Of a stretch of DNA of 64,000 nt, positions 4,890 through 21,865 are shown in pieces. Within the stretch, counting starts at the first letter, position 1. Every line of letters starts with the position of its first letter. This DNA comes from a candidate division WOR-3 bacterium (GTDB lineage Bacteria; Hydrothermota; UBA3072). The DNA lies in the NCBI GenBank assembly GCA_039804165.1, contig JBDRZZ010000004.1, positions 1 to 64,000 of the forward strand, read 5' to 3'. Made by a program: the position numbers and the translations under genes. The notes under the pieces are model-generated. The model saw nothing but the letters and a program-made list of their open reading frames with translations, ran no database searches and had not been told where the DNA came from.

Positions 4890-5189
4890 TCAAAACCTAT
4901 ATTGAGTGACTTTCTATTAAAAAGAGTATCTAATTTTCTTCAATCTCGGTTTAATATAAAGACTTGCAAAAAAGCAAAAATATACTTTAAAAGGATTTTA
5001 TAATTAAAAAGCCAAACTTTTAAATCTTTATTTCCAAAGAATTATTTAACTCATTCAAGTCGAAATACTATTTTCTTGAAAAGAGAAGATATTTATAAAA
5101 CAAAAAATCTTCCTCCATAAAATCAACTTAGGAATAAAAAATTACCTATCATTTTGAAAACCGAATAATCCAATTTAACTTTTATTTAA
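4890..5189. other. Convergent intergenic region, no gene seen
   Basis: AT-rich gap between the + strand polymerase and the - strand flippase. Stops are frequent in all frames and there is no strong GC-rich hairpin, so terminators for the two genes were not identified. Confidence 0.4.
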
Positions 5190-6446
5190 TTAATTCTCCA
5201 AAAATTTTTCTTTTACAAATTTATATTCAATAAAATAAAAAATTAATAAAATACAGAAAGAAATAACTCTTCCATATATAATTCCATTTAATCTGAAAGT
5301 CCCAACTAAAATGGGAGGAGCTAAAATAAGGGATATACCCTGAACAAGATAAGCCAAAAAAACATATATAGTTTTACCCGCACCTAAAAGAAAACATTCT
5401 ATTGGAAGTGTGAAAATCAAGGGAATAACTGAATACAAAAGCATTTTAAATATCAATGTTGCCTCTTTATACCGAGCACCATACAGTATTTCAATAAAAA
5501 AAGGAGAAAGAAAGTAAATCATGAACCAAGAGATTAATAGAAATACTATACACCACCTATTATTTAACCAATATTTTCTCAAATCGCCATCCGTTTCAAT
5601 TGCGGAAGCTTTAGGGAGAAGTATAACATAAAAAGTTCCTATTAAAAGAACAAATATATTAATAAGGCTAAGAGCTACAGAATATTGCCCAAGAATTTCA
5701 CCTTTAAAGTACTTACCAAGCCAAAAAAAATCTGCCCTGAGATTAATTAATCTAACAAAATGACTAAGAATGAGCCAATTGCCATAATTCCAAAATTTTT
5801 GGGCTATTTTAATTTTAAACTTAAGTATAGAAAAATATCCTTTTCTAAATATCATATTTAAAATAAAAACGGAAGGGAATAAATACATCAACAAATAAAA
5901 ATTAACTTGCCTTAAGTTAAACTTAACACCCAGAAAAACCAGAAATAAAAGAGTTAAATAATAAACTAATTGAACTATACTATAATTATTAAACTCCTCC
6001 TTTGCTTGAAAAAATGATAAGCCAATATTTAGTATATTCATACCTAAGCCTCCAATTAATCCATATAGGATTAATTCCTCGCCAATATGTTCAAAATTCC
6101 AAGAAATAGGCAAAAAACAAAATAAAATAAAAATAAATATAAAAAAAATCGCAAGGATAACTTTTAATGTAACATAAGTTGAAAATATTTCTTGTTCTTC
6201 CTTAGGAAATCGAACTGTAAAATATACATAAGATTGATCAAATCCTGTAAAACCTAAGCCGAAAATTGTCAGGATATAAAATCCTATAGAGAAAACACCA
6301 AAATCAATAGGTCCTAACCACCTTGCAAGGATAATAGAGATCAAAGCTGCGATAGCTCTTGAGATATAATTTGACAAACTAACTTTTGTAAAGTCTTTAA
6401 AAATTTTCAAAATAGAGAATCGAGTTTTTCCTTCAAAAACTAACAT
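5190..6446 (-). CDS. Wzx-like oligosaccharide flippase (MATE/MVF-type)
   Basis: Polytopic membrane protein of 418 residues with about 12 hydrophobic helices. The N-terminal section, with SLSNYISRAIAALISIILA then RWLGPIDFGVFSIGFYI, is the characteristic opening of polysaccharide biosynthesis flippases. The family moves undecaprenyl-linked repeat units from the cytoplasmic to the periplasmic leaflet. It lies on the opposite strand from the glycosyltransferases and polymerase but completes a Wzx/Wzy-type set. No Shine-Dalgarno sequence is apparent before the ATG at 6446. Substrate is not predictable. Confidence 0.8.
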   Translation of the reverse strand: MLVFEGKTRFSILKIFKDFTKVSLSNYISRAIAALISIILARWLGPIDFGVFSIGFYILTIFGLGFTGFDQSYVYFTVRFPKEEQEIFSTYVTLKVILAIFFIFIFILFCFLPISWNFEHIGEELILYGLIGGLGMNILNIGLSFFQAKEEFNNYSIVQLVYYLTLLFLVFLGVKFNLRQVNFYLLMYLFPSVFILNMIFRKGYFSILKFKIKIAQKFWNYGNWLILSHFVRLINLRADFFWLGKYFKGEILGQYSVALSLINIFVLLIGTFYVILLPKASAIETDGDLRKYWLNNRWCIVFLLISWFMIYFLSPFFIEILYGARYKEATLIFKMLLYSVIPLIFTLPIECFLLGAGKTIYVFLAYLVQGISLILAPPILVGTFRLNGIIYGRVISFCILLIFYFIEYKFVKEKFLEN

Positions 6447-8749: not shown

Positions 8750-8778
8750 TTGACAAAATGAATATATTTCTCTATAAT
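8750..8778 (+). promoter_or_regulatory. Consensus sigma70 promoter of the Rrf2 cassette
   Basis: TTGACA (8750-8755), 17-nt spacer, TATAAT (8773-8778): a perfect consensus promoter. Transcription should begin near 8785, giving a leader of about 22 nt that contains a GAGG ribosome site before the ATG at 8807. Such a strong promoter next to a repressor-family gene suggests control by repression. Confidence 0.75.
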
Positions 8779-8806: not shown

Positions 8807-9208
8807 ATGAAATTAACTACAAAAAGCGAATATGCACTTTTAGCACTTATCTTTATTGCCCGATATGAAAAGAAAGGCTTCATAAAGATAGATGATATCT
8901 GCTCTAAATACGATATCCCCAAGAAATATTTAGAACAATTATTTTTAATCCTAAAGCAAAATCGATATATAAAAACAAGAACAGGTGCAAGTGGTGGATA
9001 CAAATTGGCAATGCCAGCTCAAAAAATAAATATAGCTCAAATAATAAGGTTAATGGATGGAGCCTTAGCGCCAACGGAGTCAGTAAGCAAATATTTTTTT
9101 TCACATACTCCTTTAGAGAAAGAAAAGAAGCTTTTAAAAGTACTTAAAGAAATAAGAGATTATGTTTCAAATAGGCTAGAAAATTTAAAGCTCTCCGATC
9201 TAGTCTGA
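8807..9208 (+). CDS. Rrf2-family transcriptional regulator lacking cluster-ligand cysteines
   Basis: A 133-residue winged-helix regulator. The N-terminus MKLTTKSEYALLALIFIA, then ICSKYDIPKKYLEQLFLILK and KTRTGASGGYKLA, is the diagnostic Rrf2 wing-helix pattern. Most Fe-S sensing members (IscR, NsrR) have three Cys in the segment after residue 90; here that segment (ESVSKYFFSHTPLEKEK) has none. The only Cys is C32 in the DNA-binding domain. It is therefore unlikely to bind a cluster in the IscR way and may sense another signal or partner. It heads a four-gene + strand cassette driven by a consensus promoter with a palindrome over the -10, so it is probably the autoregulated local repressor. 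Confidence 0.88.
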   Translation: MKLTTKSEYALLALIFIARYEKKGFIKIDDICSKYDIPKKYLEQLFLILKQNRYIKTRTGASGGYKLAMPAQKINIAQIIRLMDGALAPTESVSKYFFSHTPLEKEKKLLKVLKEIRDYVSNRLENLKLSDLV

Positions 9209-9256
9209 ACCAGAAAGGAAAAAATATGTAGTGTTAATAAATATAGGAGGAGATAT

Positions 9257-10066
9257 ATGGATATTGAGATAAAAAAAATAACAATAATTGGTGGGTATGG
9301 AAAAACAGGAGAAAAGGAACTTATAAATGAAGTAAATTTTGAAATGGGTGATATAGTAAGCATTGTAGGACCAACAGGTTCAGGGAAAACAACTTTAATT
9401 AACGATATAGAACTTTTTGCAAATGAAAATACTCCTTCTGGAAGAAAAGTGCTCATTAACAATGCTACCCCCCCGGAAGAATTTATGAGTGATCCTTCTA
9501 AAAATCCTATTGCATTGATTACTCAGCACACTAATTTTCTATCAGATTTACCTGTAAGGAGATTCTTAGAAACGCACGCTAAAATAAGGCAGACTACTAG
9601 AAGTAAATCTGTCATAGAAGAAACTTTAGATTTTGCAAATGAACTAACAGGAGAACCTATACTTTTAGAAAGTGCAATGACAGAGTTGTCAGGGGGTCAG
9701 ACTCGTGCACTCTTAATAGCAGATGCAGTAATAATAGGGAATTCACCAATAATTTTATTAGATGAGATAGAAAATGCCGGTATCCATAGAACAAAAGCTA
9801 TAGAACTTTTGAAAAAATACGAGAAGATCTTTATCTTCGTTACTCACGACCCAAGAATAGCCCTCCTTTCGGATTTCAGGATCGTTATGAAAAATGGAGC
9901 AATGCAGAAGATAATTATAACTGAAGATGAAGAGCAGAGGGTGGCTGAGGAGATAAAGAAAATAGATGATCTTATGCTAGATTTTAGAGCACAAATAAGG
10001 GCGGGAGAGCGGATTAGTGAAAAGGATCTTGAGAATAAATTAAGAGCATTAGGGTATATTTCTTAA
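9257..10066 (+). CDS. Soluble ABC-type ATPase of the cofactor cassette (no permease partner)
   Basis: Stand-alone ABC ATPase, 269 residues. Walker A GPTGSGKTT (38-46), Q-loop Q90, signature LSGGQ (144-148), Walker B IILLDE (165-170) and switch H197 are all present, so it should hydrolyse ATP. No membrane-spanning subunit is encoded nearby; its neighbours are a GTPase and an Fe-S protein. This recalls soluble ABC ATPases such as SufC that drive assembly reactions rather than transport. The C-terminal 60 residues after the ATPase core are charged and helical (EDEEQRVAEEIKKIDDLM) and may bind a partner. Strong ribosome site AGGAGG. Distinct from ordinary importers in having an unusual N-terminal IIGGYGKTGEKELINEV strand region. 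Function not established. Confidence 0.8.
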   Translation: MDIEIKKITIIGGYGKTGEKELINEVNFEMGDIVSIVGPTGSGKTTLINDIELFANENTPSGRKVLINNATPPEEFMSDPSKNPIALITQHTNFLSDLPVRRFLETHAKIRQTTRSKSVIEETLDFANELTGEPILLESAMTELSGGQTRALLIADAVIIGNSPIILLDEIENAGIHRTKAIELLKKYEKIFIFVTHDPRIALLSDFRIVMKNGAMQKIIITEDEEQRVAEEIKKIDDLMLDFRAQIRAGERISEKDLENKLRALGYIS

Positions 10067-10085
10067 AAAAAAGAGAGGTAAAAAT

Positions 10086-10784
10086 ATGAAAGTTATAATA
10101 TGTGCTGGGCCTCCAACGAGTGGGAAAACAACTGTATTAAAACAAGTTATCAAAAAACTCAAAGCTAAAGGGCAAAAACTTGCATATCTAAAAATAGATG
10201 TCCAGTTTGCCGATGAAGATGAAATCTTTAAAAAAGAGTTTGGAATACCTACCAAGAAAGTTTATTCAACAGATTTATGCCCAGACCATTGCAATGTAGT
10301 GGTACTCGGTGATGCTATAAAATGGGCCGAAGGAGAAAAAACTGATGCGCTTTTTGTTGAAACGGCAGGGTTGTGTCTTAGATGTTCACCTTACATCGAG
10401 GGTTCATTAGGTATTGTTGTATTAGAAGCAACAAGTGGAATGAACTTACCTCGAAAGATCGGCCCCATGTTATCTTTAGCAGACATAGCCGTTGTTACAA
10501 AAATTGATCTTGTATCACAAGCCGAAAGAGAAGTTTTTAGAGCTAATATTAATGATGCAGCAAAAGTAGTTATCATAGAAACTGATGCATTACACGGTAT
10601 AAATATAGAGCACATTGTTAGAAAAATCGAAAAAACACAAGAGATAAAAGAGCCTTTATTGCTCAGAGGTAATCCACCTGTGGGAACCTGCACTATCTGT
10701 GTGGGCAAAAAAGAGATTGGTGCAAAATCTCATTTTGGAGTATTAAGAACTTTAGAAGCTGACATATTTTACAGAGGTGAATGA
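10086..10784 (+). CDS. HypB/CobW-like P-loop GTPase with three Cys pairs
   Basis: Predicted G3E-like or related SIMIBI-class nucleotide-binding protein, 232 residues. Walker A GPPTSGKTT (8-16), acidic switch VETAG (91-95) and TKID at 138-141 in the place of the NKxD guanine-specificity motif. Three cysteine pairs stand out: C65-x3-C69, C97-x2-C100 and C202-x2-C205, plus C6. They could bind Zn, Ni or an Fe-S cluster. HypB, UreG and CobW-type relatives use GTP hydrolysis to insert metals into enzymes, so a metallochaperone role is likely but unproven. It begins 19 bases after the ABC ATPase, with an AGAGG ribosome site, and stops 1 base before the chosen ATG of the Fe-S protein. Confidence 0.78.
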   Translation: MKVIICAGPPTSGKTTVLKQVIKKLKAKGQKLAYLKIDVQFADEDEIFKKEFGIPTKKVYSTDLCPDHCNVVVLGDAIKWAEGEKTDALFVETAGLCLRCSPYIEGSLGIVVLEATSGMNLPRKIGPMLSLADIAVVTKIDLVSQAEREVFRANINDAAKVVIIETDALHGINIEHIVRKIEKTQEIKEPLLLRGNPPVGTCTICVGKKEIGAKSHFGVLRTLEADIFYRGE

Positions 10785-10785
10785 T

Positions 10786-11433
10786 ATGAATAAAAAAGAA
10801 ATAATAGAGAAATTGCCCGGGAAAAATTGTGGCTTATGTGGGTTAAAAACCTGTAAGGAATTTGCCGAAATAGCATCGAAAGATCCAGATGCAATGAAAA
10901 GGTGTATTTTTTTAGACGAAAGAAAAATACGTCCGATGAGTTCAGAGTTTGAAGAAGAAAATATTACATGGAAGGACAACTTGGATAGAGATTATGACTT
11001 TATTCTGGATAAATTTCCAGGAGAACCGGGACCAAGAGAGACTATAATATTATTTAATCCAACCAATGTAGAAAAACTCGGAATCAAAAAAGGTGATATT
11101 TTATATGGTCGTCCTGCTTGGATATCATGTGGTTGTCCAGTTACTCATGTCGGCATAGTAGTAGATGATCCTGATTATTTCAATGGGACTGTCGTTTGGT
11201 GTATTGTAGGGCCTATGGTATCAAGAGAGAGAGGTATCAACATTGGATATTATAATACTACTGCATATGAAGGTTTGGTGAAATATACCCGAAAAGAGCT
11301 TCAAATTGGCAGAAGATACTATTTCTTACCAAGATATTGTATGCTCCAGTGGAGACATTGTGGTTTGATAAATCAGATTGTTAAAACAAAGGACGGCTTT
11401 CGTGTACGTATTGAAGGGCTGTGGATAGGTTAG
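10786..11433 (+). CDS. Fe-S protein with N-terminal PF04060-type 4Fe-4S motif
   Basis: A 215-residue protein. The N-terminus has C15-x2-C18-x4-C23-x16-C40, the 4Fe-4S pattern of PF04060, also found in RnfB and in the CODH/ACS corrinoid protein large subunit. The rest (about 75-215) is a separate conserved-looking domain with KKGDILYGRP, the vicinal C115/C117 (ISCGCPVTHVG), C139, C185 and C192. I do not recognise this domain. Start ATG 10786 is preferred over the in-frame GTG at 10777 because GAGGTGA lies 6 bases upstream of it. Last gene of the Rrf2-ABC-GTPase cassette; it could be the scaffold or target of cluster chemistry driven by the two NTPases. Confidence 0.75.
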   Translation: MNKKEIIEKLPGKNCGLCGLKTCKEFAEIASKDPDAMKRCIFLDERKIRPMSSEFEEENITWKDNLDRDYDFILDKFPGEPGPRETIILFNPTNVEKLGIKKGDILYGRPAWISCGCPVTHVGIVVDDPDYFNGTVVWCIVGPMVSRERGINIGYYNTTAYEGLVKYTRKELQIGRRYYFLPRYCMLQWRHCGLINQIVKTKDGFRVRIEGLWIG

Positions 11434-11571
11434 GAGAAAAGAAACAGAGAGAGAAAAATTTTTGGTTTGTCTCATGCTTTCTATGTAGATGAGATATGGT
11501 ATAAAGATAATTTGAATATTTCATGCTCAAAATACACTAATATTTTGATTTTTTACAATTTAAAATTATTT

Positions 11572-12039
11572 TTACCACTCTTCAAGCATTATCCTAAGAA
11601 GAGAACTTTTTATCTTTGAAGCAACTGAATCTATTGCCTCTAGTTCTCGCGAATTTACAGAATAAACAAAAGACTCTAAAATTGATCTTTCCCATTCACT
11701 TTCATCCTTATCCTTCTTCTTAAGAGAAAACCTAACGCCAATACTTAATCGATAACTCTCTATCTCTCCCCCTGGAGTATACGCTTCAGGCGTCCTTTTG
11801 TAATCATCAATCACACCTTCAAGAATGTAATCTCCCTTAGAATCCATTTTAAGTTCCACTCTCCCATCTTTTATAAAAGCATCTACTAATCTTTCCGTTA
11901 ATAACCTCTCAATATCAGGATTTCCTGTATTGTTGTTTAAGGAAGAAATAGATAAACTTCCTTTAAAATAACCACTTTTAAAAGAATAACTACAAGAAAC
12001 AAACAATAGAAAAAAATATAAATAAAGCCTTTTATTCAT
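11572..12039 (-). CDS. lptE: LptE-like outer-membrane lipoprotein
   Basis: A 155-residue lipoprotein: signal peptide with lipobox LLFVSC, lipidation at C16. The mature part follows the LptE pattern of short beta-strands and helices: LSISSLNNNTGNPDIERLLTERLVDAFIKDGRVEL, then a strand pair and a C-terminal helix ending in LEEW, written here in pieces because the pattern, not exact identity, supports the call. LptE plugs the LptD barrel in lipopolysaccharide export. Last gene of a - strand operon with gltX and a PpiD-like foldase; its start overlaps the foldase stop by 8 bases. No LptD gene is in this window. Confidence 0.65.
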   Translation of the reverse strand: MNKRLYLYFFLLFVSCSYSFKSGYFKGSLSISSLNNNTGNPDIERLLTERLVDAFIKDGRVELKMDSKGDYILEGVIDDYKRTPEAYTPGGEIESYRLSIGVRFSLKKKDKDESEWERSILESFVYSVNSRELEAIDSVASKIKSSLLRIMLEEW

Positions 12040-20694: not shown

Positions 20695-21177
20695 CTAAGG
20701 CTGTCCACCACCTCCGCCTTGTGGAAGATTCGTTCCTGGTCTCAAAGTGAGATCAATCAACCTATTTTTCCCGTACCCCGTTATTTCATAATATACTCCA
20801 TTAAAATCTGTAGCTTGAGCTTGATTTGCATCCTCAGGTTCATAACCAACCATGCCAGGGCTACCAGCTTGTGCTCCTACTGAAATACATGCGTTAAGAC
20901 CATCATCCTCTAACGTCGCTCCTGTATAAGGATTTTTGTAATTTAAGGGTAATTCATCCTCAATATCGTCAGTATTCGCGGTTCCAGGATAATTTCCATC
21001 ATGATCTACAGCTAATGCTTCAACAGCTACTTGCAAAGTATGCATATTCGACTTTACAGAAGCTTCTCTAGATCTATCTACAACCCTTACAAAGTTCGGG
21101 ATGGCTATAGCTGCAAGAATACCAATGATGACAACCACAACCATTAACTCAATCAAGGTAAAACCACGCTTCTTCAT
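20695..21177 (-). CDS. Type IV pilin/pseudopilin-like protein
   Basis: Class III leader MKKRGFTLIELMVVVVIIGI with prepilin peptidase cleavage at G|F, the conserved Glu five residues after cleavage, and the long hydrophobic N-terminal helix. The C-terminal domain has a GspG/major-pilin-like DHDGNYPGT motif and Ala/Asn/Gly-rich loops, ending in a Gly-rich tail. Start ATG 21177 is preferred over the in-frame ATG at 21204 because AGGAGG lies 6 bases upstream and the leader is then normal length. Total 160 residues. A second pilin gene lies upstream on the same strand. No assembly ATPase or platform gene is in the window. Confidence 0.88.
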   Translation of the reverse strand: MKKRGFTLIELMVVVVIIGILAAIAIPNFVRVVDRSREASVKSNMHTLQVAVEALAVDHDGNYPGTANTDDIEDELPLNYKNPYTGATLEDDGLNACISVGAQAGSPGMVGYEPEDANQAQATDFNGVYYEITGYGKNRLIDLTLRPGTNLPQGGGGGQP

Positions 21178-21249
21178 ATAAAACCTCCTTTTTAAGTTAA
21201 ACATTTCCCATTATTTATATTTTAACATTCAAAAAACGTTCCAAAATTT

Positions 21250-21272
21250 AAGTTCTTATTCTTCAAGAACTT
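21250..21272. repeat. Inverted repeat between the pilin genes
   Basis: AAGTTCTT-N7-AAGAACTT, perfect 8-nt arms. It may end the transcript of the upstream pilin gene or sit in the leader of the downstream one; there is no clear T-run to decide. Confidence 0.45.
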
Positions 21273-21295
21273 GTATTTATTACCTCTTGCAAACC

Positions 21296-21309
21296 GCAAA
21301 AATTTTTGC
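21296..21309. repeat. Perfect 14-bp palindrome between the pilin genes
   Basis: GCAAAAATTTTTGC, self-complementary. Possible protein-binding site or part of the pilin regulatory region. Confidence 0.35.
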
Positions 21310-21327
21310 AAAATAAGTAAAATAATT

Positions 21328-21343
21328 TTTACGAATTCGTAAA
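21328..21343. repeat. Perfect 16-bp palindrome just after the second pilin gene
   Basis: TTTACGAATTCGTAAA, self-complementary, 1 base from the stop codon of the upstream pilin gene. Candidate operator for the downstream pilin gene or weak terminator. Confidence 0.4.
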
Positions 21344-21344
21344 T

Positions 21345-21749
21345 TCATTTCACAAGTCCTTCCGAGAGAATAAGTGGAAGGGGGGCAGCATTTCTTCCCA
21401 ATCCTCTAATTTTGTAATGCTCATATGGTTCAGAAGTCTCGTATTCGACAACTCCCTCAATATCTTCTTCCCTTCCATCTTGAACGGCTGGTGCAGAATG
21501 ATTAAATGGGTTTTTCATATAATCAGGAAAATTATTTATTATAGAGTCTACAGTTGGGGGATATACACTAGAATGACCAATAGCATAAAACTCTACCTCA
21601 AGTTGAGTTATATGCATATTTGATTCAACCTCTGCTTCTTTAGCTCGATTTAAAACTCTCACAAAATTAGGAACAGCAATTGCAACAAGAATTCCAATTA
21701 TCACAATTACAATCATAAGTTCAATTAAGGTAAATCCTATTTTTCTCAT
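21345..21749 (-). CDS. Type IV pilin/pseudopilin-like protein
   Basis: Leader MRKIGFTLIELMIVIVIIGI with cleavage at G|F and conserved Glu5, then a long hydrophobic helix running into NFVRVLNRAKEAEVESNMHI. The C-terminal domain contains HSSVYPPTVDSI, a pseudopilin-like YP motif. At 134 residues it is shorter than its neighbour, with which it shares the N-terminal helix but little else, so they are likely paralogues with different roles. No Shine-Dalgarno sequence; a TTGACT at 21782-21777 with a poorly spaced -10 is the only promoter candidate. Confidence 0.85.
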   Translation of the reverse strand: MRKIGFTLIELMIVIVIIGILVAIAVPNFVRVLNRAKEAEVESNMHITQLEVEFYAIGHSSVYPPTVDSIINNFPDYMKNPFNHSAPAVQDGREEDIEGVVEYETSEPYEHYKIRGLGRNAAPLPLILSEGLVK

Positions 21750-21865
21750 ATTTAAAAATTATAAAAAAATTAAAAAAGTCAACCCTAAAAACTCTAAATT
21801 CAACAAAAATAATTATATGAGACTTGACAAACTTCTTCATTTTATAATCTTGTTTAAGGAGAAAA

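Follow-up and report, generated by a model that had tools for sequence, protein, structure and literature searches.

The ABC ATPase, the GTPase, and the COG2000-type Fe-S protein encoded by one operon of the 64,000-nucleotide stretch of DNA analysed here (the window) form a real conserved module. Genes, motifs, conservation, synteny, and phylogeny are directly observed; the three genes co-occur far beyond chance, and the trio recurs in many anaerobes beside genes for sulfur supply or Fe-S cluster assembly. Its most likely job is the loading of a metal-sulfur cofactor into other proteins, and we favour, with somewhat better than even confidence, an accessory, cytosolic, NTP-driven module for the assembly or delivery of such cofactors. 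If true, methanogens, ANME-2 archaea, and many anaerobic bacteria would share a cofactor-assembly route using ATP and GTP jointly, and a role would be given to the three gene families left without one by a 2025 study of coenzyme M (CoM). The trio was previously pointed out in methanogens by that study (PMC12068725), and the copy in the window is therefore not its first sighting. New are its presence in bacteria, among them isolates whose locus has no CoM genes, and, as far as our literature searches show, a bacterial clade associated with NifS and with Fe-S assembly neighbours.

The operon and its products

Four plus-strand genes called in the window at 8807-11433 encode an Rrf2-family regulator (8807..9208, 133 residues; PF02082, E 1.9e-28), a soluble ABC ATPase (9257..10066, 269 residues; PF00005 ABC_tran, E 7.4e-15), a G3E-type (HypB/UreG-like) GTPase (10086..10784, 232 residues; PF02492 cobW/HypB/UreG, E 2.5e-12), and a COG2000-type Fe-S protein (10786..11433, 215 residues from its ATG; PF04060 FeS, E 1.9e-8). 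An alternative GTG start of the last gene is possible at 10777. The intergenic gaps are 48, 19, and 1 nt, and plausible Shine-Dalgarno sequences precede each of the three later genes (ABC, GTPase, and Fe-S protein). A candidate sigma-70-type promoter, TTGACA-17-TATAAT, is found on the plus strand at 8750..8778, ~28 nt ahead of the Rrf2 gene. It matches the consensus at 12 of 12 positions; weaker promoter-like sites occur at the frequency seen in shuffled sequence. The four protein types and their tight packing behind a single consensus promoter are thus as a preliminary description of this DNA had read them. The neighbouring genes, a UDP-sugar dehydrogenase upstream and an LptE-like lipoprotein downstream, are oppositely oriented and apparently unrelated. 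Elsewhere in the window (20695-21750), two adjacent minus-strand ORFs of 169 and 134 residues are similar to each other, perhaps by tandem duplication. The source genome (G000) amounts to 1.96 Mb in 49 contigs and is 95% complete.

The Rrf2 protein scores above the TIGR00738 cut-off and below those of the IscR and CymR equivalogs, and the IscR-type Cys triad is absent from it. The ABC protein displays a Walker A motif (GPTGSGKT), a Q-loop, LSGGQ, DEIENAG, and an H-loop (VTHD), a complete set that is kept in 53 aligned relatives. Its top model match is a transporter model (58.6 bits), and the SufC model is not among its best 25 matches.

The G3E superfamily is defined by a G1 P-loop, a Glu in G3, and an NKxD-like G4 (PMC9164220), features that the GTPase of the window possesses as GPPTSGKT, E92 within ETAG, and TKID. 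Its scores fall far short of the HypB (47.5 vs 121.2 bits) and UreG (32.2 vs 204.2 bits) subfamily cut-offs, and instead of the CxCC motif of COG0523 (CobW), absent here, it harbors CPDH, CLRC, and CTIC. HypB and UreG are its nearest solved structures in a profile search, sharing the P-loop, the Glu in G3, the TKxD in G4, and a Cys/His metal-type motif at an equivalent place: in the profile, CPDH lines up with the C..H of HypB, and C97/C100 bracket the second HypB Cys. These aligned HypB positions bind metal. Unlike HypB and UreG, the family has an extra C-terminal CTxC, and its partners are the ABC and COG2000 proteins, not HypA or UreE/F/H. An alignment shows C65, P66, D67, H68, C97, C100, C202, and C205 to be invariant in 59 of 59 GTPases, together with K14, E92, K139, and D141. 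Three Cys pairs had been proposed at first; C97/C100 and C202/C205 hold across the family, whereas C65/C69 does not, C69 being a Cys only within the window's own clade and the family-wide motif being C65-P-D-H68.

The COG2000 protein carries an N-terminal predicted [4Fe-4S] site, C15-x2-C18-x4-C23-x16-C40, just as first described. These four Cys, as well as C117 and H121, are invariant in 38 of 38 family members; C185 and H191 are likewise invariant in every one of the 37 members for which those positions are covered. Among the additional Cys listed in the preliminary description, C117 and C185 are family-wide, while C115 is clade-specific, C139 variable, and C192 confined to the window. AlphaFold models reach a pLDDT of 83 for the window protein and of 91 for a relative (L068), the latter composed of an N-terminal domain followed by a helix and a β-rich domain. 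By profile, the N-terminal domain matches the CODH/ACS corrinoid Fe-S protein and RnfB (E 7.8e-8 and 6.4e-7), and in the L068 model it matches the corrinoid Fe-S protein structurally (Foldseek, 57 columns, rmsd 3.0). The likeness to the large subunit of that protein and to RnfB, both PF04060 proteins, is limited to this domain, the remainder of them being unmatched. Fold searches with the β-rich C-terminal domain returned no significant match to a solved fold, and the scaffold role considered below is therefore a guess.

Distribution and genomic neighbourhoods

A tblastn test independent of ORF calling covered 85 GTPase loci, drawn from archaea, Bacteroidota, Bacillota, and others. The ABC gene is adjacent in 73 of them and COG2000 in 58. 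The preliminary description had staked its reading of one system on the genes occurring together in other genomes, which they do. Of the 12 loci that lack ABC, contig ends truncate two, and the other ten belong to one archaeal group with a solitary GTPase. Apparent ABC-GTPase fusions, seen as long frames in GC-rich archaeal genomes, turned out to be out-of-frame artefacts once translations were read, and opposite-strand ORF clusters in methanogen loci are likewise spurious.

A GTPase-profile scan of 84,980 species yielded 43 loci. Their archaeal part comprises Methanosarcinales, Methanotrichaceae, ANME-2, Methanomassiliicoccaceae, and Methanothermococcus; the bacterial part comprises Bacteroidota (with the isolates Draconibacterium, Sunxiuqinia, Maribellus, and Plebeiobacterium), Bacillota, and one "Proteobacteria" MAG. 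Further loci were found in 21 of 247 genomes of the order of Draconibacterium and in 81 of 295 of the archaeal phylum of Methanosaeta. Within the window's phylum the distribution is patchy, since only G000 and G062 carry the module among 147 genomes. No relative was detected in the viral contigs and plasmids searched.

In a maximum-likelihood tree of 59 GTPases, that of the window falls within a clade of 15 (support 100/100), the other members being L065, its nearest relative (78% GTPase identity), and Bacteroidales. A NifS-type cysteine desulfurase gene is found in the operon of 12 of these 15 members. Twelve clade loci, of the order Bacteroidales, show the order ABC, GTPase, cysteine desulfurase, with COG2000 also called in 11; in the Bacteroidales operons and in one archaeal operon, the NifS-type gene sits between GTPase and COG2000. 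The clade desulfurase scores 410-500 bits with NifS/IscS models, narrowly missing the cut-off of the NifS equivalog, and it retains the SAGSACS loop. Such adjacency is unlikely to arise by chance, because ~0.01 NifS genes are expected per 12 kb locus, as estimated from one carrier (G368) with three NifS homologues in 4.3 Mb. The gene is absent from the operons of the window, L065, and L140, as well as from other COG2000 clades; in the window and L065, a local desulfurase was either lost or never present. The single NifS/IscS of G000, on contig C6, was rejected as a locus-specific partner, relatives devoid of the trio having similar ones.

Other neighbours also pertain to sulfur or Fe-S clusters. 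In the archaeal genome G427, locus L166 has the same four-gene order, desulfurase included, and is flanked by IscU-IscS and SufC-SufB; L176 is near IscU-IscS genes; the L145 operon continues into CysE-CysK; and L173 harbors CysE, CysK, ThiF-like, SAMP/MoaD-like, and LarE genes. At the head of the L065 operon is the gene for a cation-efflux protein bearing a Nitro_FeMo-Co domain; the product of the next gene matches Metal_resist weakly. Many loci of the NifS-associated type have Rrf2 and Crp/Fnr regulators at their flanks, and Rrf2 genes homologous to that of the window are also found beside Bacteroidales loci. None of the scored sulfur, Fe-S, and CoM gene clusters lies within 6 kb in 19 of the 44 ORF-called COG2000 loci, the window included. 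As a side observation, the ABC-GTPase-COG2000 genes of L166 and L175 adjoin genes (11060-11989 and 5101-6042, respectively) for NMT1-like solute-binding proteins in which no signal peptide is obvious.

A proposed cytosolic cofactor assembly or delivery module

The mechanism that we propose is deduced from ligands and genomic context, and this applies to the binding of metal, the use of nucleotides, the formation of a complex, the flow of sulfur, and the target. The COG2000 protein would serve as a carrier or scaffold, its N-terminus holding a [4Fe-4S] cluster and the C117/H121/C185/H191 site a metal or nascent cluster. The GTPase would bind metal at its CPDH and CxxC motifs and hand it on in a GTP-gated manner, while an ABC ATPase dimer would perform conformational work on the scaffold, as SufC does in SUF. 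Sulfur would come from the operon-encoded cysteine desulfurase in most clade members, from sulfide in methanogens, and perhaps from the NifS/IscS of contig C6 in the window's genome; Rrf2 would tune expression.

This reading draws on the proximity of ABC (73/85) and COG2000 (58/85) to the GTPase, on NifS in 12 of 15 clade operons, and on the IscU-IscS, SufC-SufB, CysE-CysK, and CoM-gene neighbours. It also draws on the Rrf2 and Crp/Fnr regulators, the cation-efflux/Nitro_FeMo-Co gene of L065, the invariant metal-type residues, HypB and UreG as nearest solved GTPases, and the N-terminal corrinoid Fe-S protein match. Counted against it are the absence of NifS from the window operon, the 19 of 44 loci without scored clusters within 6 kb, the lack of a fold match for the COG2000 C-terminus, and ABC scores far from SufC. 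The preliminary description had suggested a system that builds, inserts, or repairs a metal centre. Of this, the conserved module, the lack of a conserved permease, and the metal and sulfur contexts (NifS, IscU/IscS, SufBC, CoM) are borne out; a specific centre that it would build, insert, or repair is a conjecture.

Clients were sought among the carriers in the HcyBio, hybrid-cluster/CODH, Moco oxidoreductase, and LarC families, none of which tracks the module. HcyBio/MMP16 was rejected as a universal client, being absent from most bacterial carriers, as were the other three, each absent from several or most carriers. Incomplete assemblies weaken these absences; isolates are nevertheless among the negatives, such as Draconibacterium (G164), with no Moco or LarC match.

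SUF is among the known systems that come closest. Both systems have a soluble ABC ATPase with all motifs, a cysteine desulfurase (in the clade operons), and Rrf2 (at several loci); unlike SUF, the module has an ABC protein that is not SufC, no SufB/D-like scaffold in the operon, and an extra GTPase. No SUFBD protein is encoded in the window operon, and one is found elsewhere in G000. SufBD is kept in most carrier genomes, including G000, which rejects the module as a SUF replacement; with SUF also present in most of these genomes, the module is not the housekeeping system. The G000 matches (C11:16198-16884 and C1:18501-18662) correspond to one SUFBD protein (387-residue frame) plus a fragment and may represent a minimal SUF system.

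A bolder proposal, which we hold only tentatively and as a minority possibility, is that the module may be a further dedicated metal-sulfur machinery beside NIF, ISC, SUF, and their minimal forms. It would be driven by ATP and GTP, have COG2000 as a new scaffold fold, and serve the CoM branch in methanogens, with its core put to further use on other metals through different cargo proteins. The role of the trio can be addressed outside methanogens as well, since some bacterial carriers are cultured isolates, such as Draconibacterium orientale and Sunxiuqinia elliptica.

Other partners and alternative functions

The ABC-GTPase pair also occurs without COG2000, together with SBP_bac_6 proteins, DUF1858-SBP fusions, or DUF364 "heavy-metal chelation" proteins. 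In the Clostridia loci L102-L105, the partner is a solute-binding-domain protein without an evident signal peptide, and DUF1858-SBP or related SBP proteins accompany the pair in L103, L131-L133, L136, L148, L165, and L174. In L103 (6751-9798), DUF1858-SBP, GTPase, and N-terminally extended ABC genes lie downstream of NMT1-like and Fec-type transporter genes, the latter being found in L130 as well. The archaeal loci L169, L170, and L172 display GTPase-ABC-DUF364 genes. In L169 and L172 these immediately follow Mtr methyltransferase genes, which suggests a corrinoid or metal role; in L167, the pair and DUF364 precede tungstate-transporter-like genes. These partners and placements argue for the handling of metals or metal cofactors by the core and against a function restricted to CoM.

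The same observations, along with the UreG/HypB-like GTPase motif and the tungstate-transporter-like genes that follow the GTPase alone in L083, would fit a general ABC and GTPase metallochaperone core for several metals or metal cofactors, in which the third protein would set the cargo. Fe-S would then be one cargo among several, and Ni, Co, Zn, or another metal may be what the window copy carries. We regard this as rather unlikely: the window clade is associated with NifS instead of a metal transporter, the cation-efflux gene of L065 being the exception, and neither LarC nor the Moco enzymes track the module.

A quite unlikely alternative is that the trio assembles no metal centre but transfers sulfur to small thiols, helping to bring it into CoM or similar thiols and into sulfur amino acids; its Fe-S and Cys sites would then carry sulfur or electrons. 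To our knowledge, a HypB-like GTPase is not needed in known thiol synthesis, which counts against it. In its favour are methanogens, in which three genes of unknown role, encoding an ATPase, a Ni2+-binding GTPase, and a COG2000 Fe-S protein, often colocalise with CoM biosynthesis, as depicted in Fig. 2B of the 2025 paper that presents methanogenesis marker 16 (MMP16) as CoM synthase (PMC12068725). The literature searched includes no other paper in which "COG2000" appears together with "Fe-S protein". Our equation of its COG2000 with the present family rests on matching genes and context, not on a COG profile; the window has the same three protein types (ABC ATPase, HypB-like GTPase, PF04060/COG2000) side by side. 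Our methanogen loci likewise contain cysteate synthase, ABC, GTPase, COG2000, ComD/ComE, and HcyBio/MMP16, or ComA instead in Methanothermococcus, and CysE/CysK, a cysteine dioxygenase-like cupin, and LarE are near other copies. In contrast to the published trio, beside cysteate synthase, ComDE, and MMP16, the window copy is bacterial, led by Rrf2, and part of a NifS-associated clade, with no CoM gene beside it. HcyBio/MMP16 is missing from G000, from G062 and G147, and from most bacterial carriers, and next to the trio of the Draconibacterium, Sunxiuqinia, and Maribellus loci we recognised no CoM gene.

It is very unlikely that the module repairs oxidised or nitrosylated clusters under stress instead of building them. 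The Rrf2 and Crp/Fnr regulators, the DUF1858 domain of related proteins, and the hybrid-cluster/CODH family of many Bacteroidales carriers would fit repair, but G000, G147, and G062 lack that family, and the methanogen copies lie within a biosynthetic operon. Least probable by far is an ordinary ABC importer or exporter of which the ATPase is the ATP-binding subunit, its gene neighbours being unrelated, as the ABC_tran domain and a weak resemblance to transporter ATPases might suggest: across archaea and bacteria the partners are a soluble GTPase and COG2000, and no conserved permease to serve as cognate partner exists across 42 COG2000-type operons, only six of which encode a protein with at least four predicted TM segments, the six being mutually unrelated. 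The ATPase with all motifs and no permease of the preliminary description, which would have failed had its homologues always sat with a permease, thus stands.

Solitary GTPases, with neither ABC nor COG2000 nearby, are found in ANME-2 and related Methanosarcinales (L082-L085, L087, L089, L091, L093-L095). Several of them adjoin thioredoxin reductase-like genes, and in L083 the solitary GTPase is followed by the tungstate-transporter-like genes and a TrmO-domain gene.
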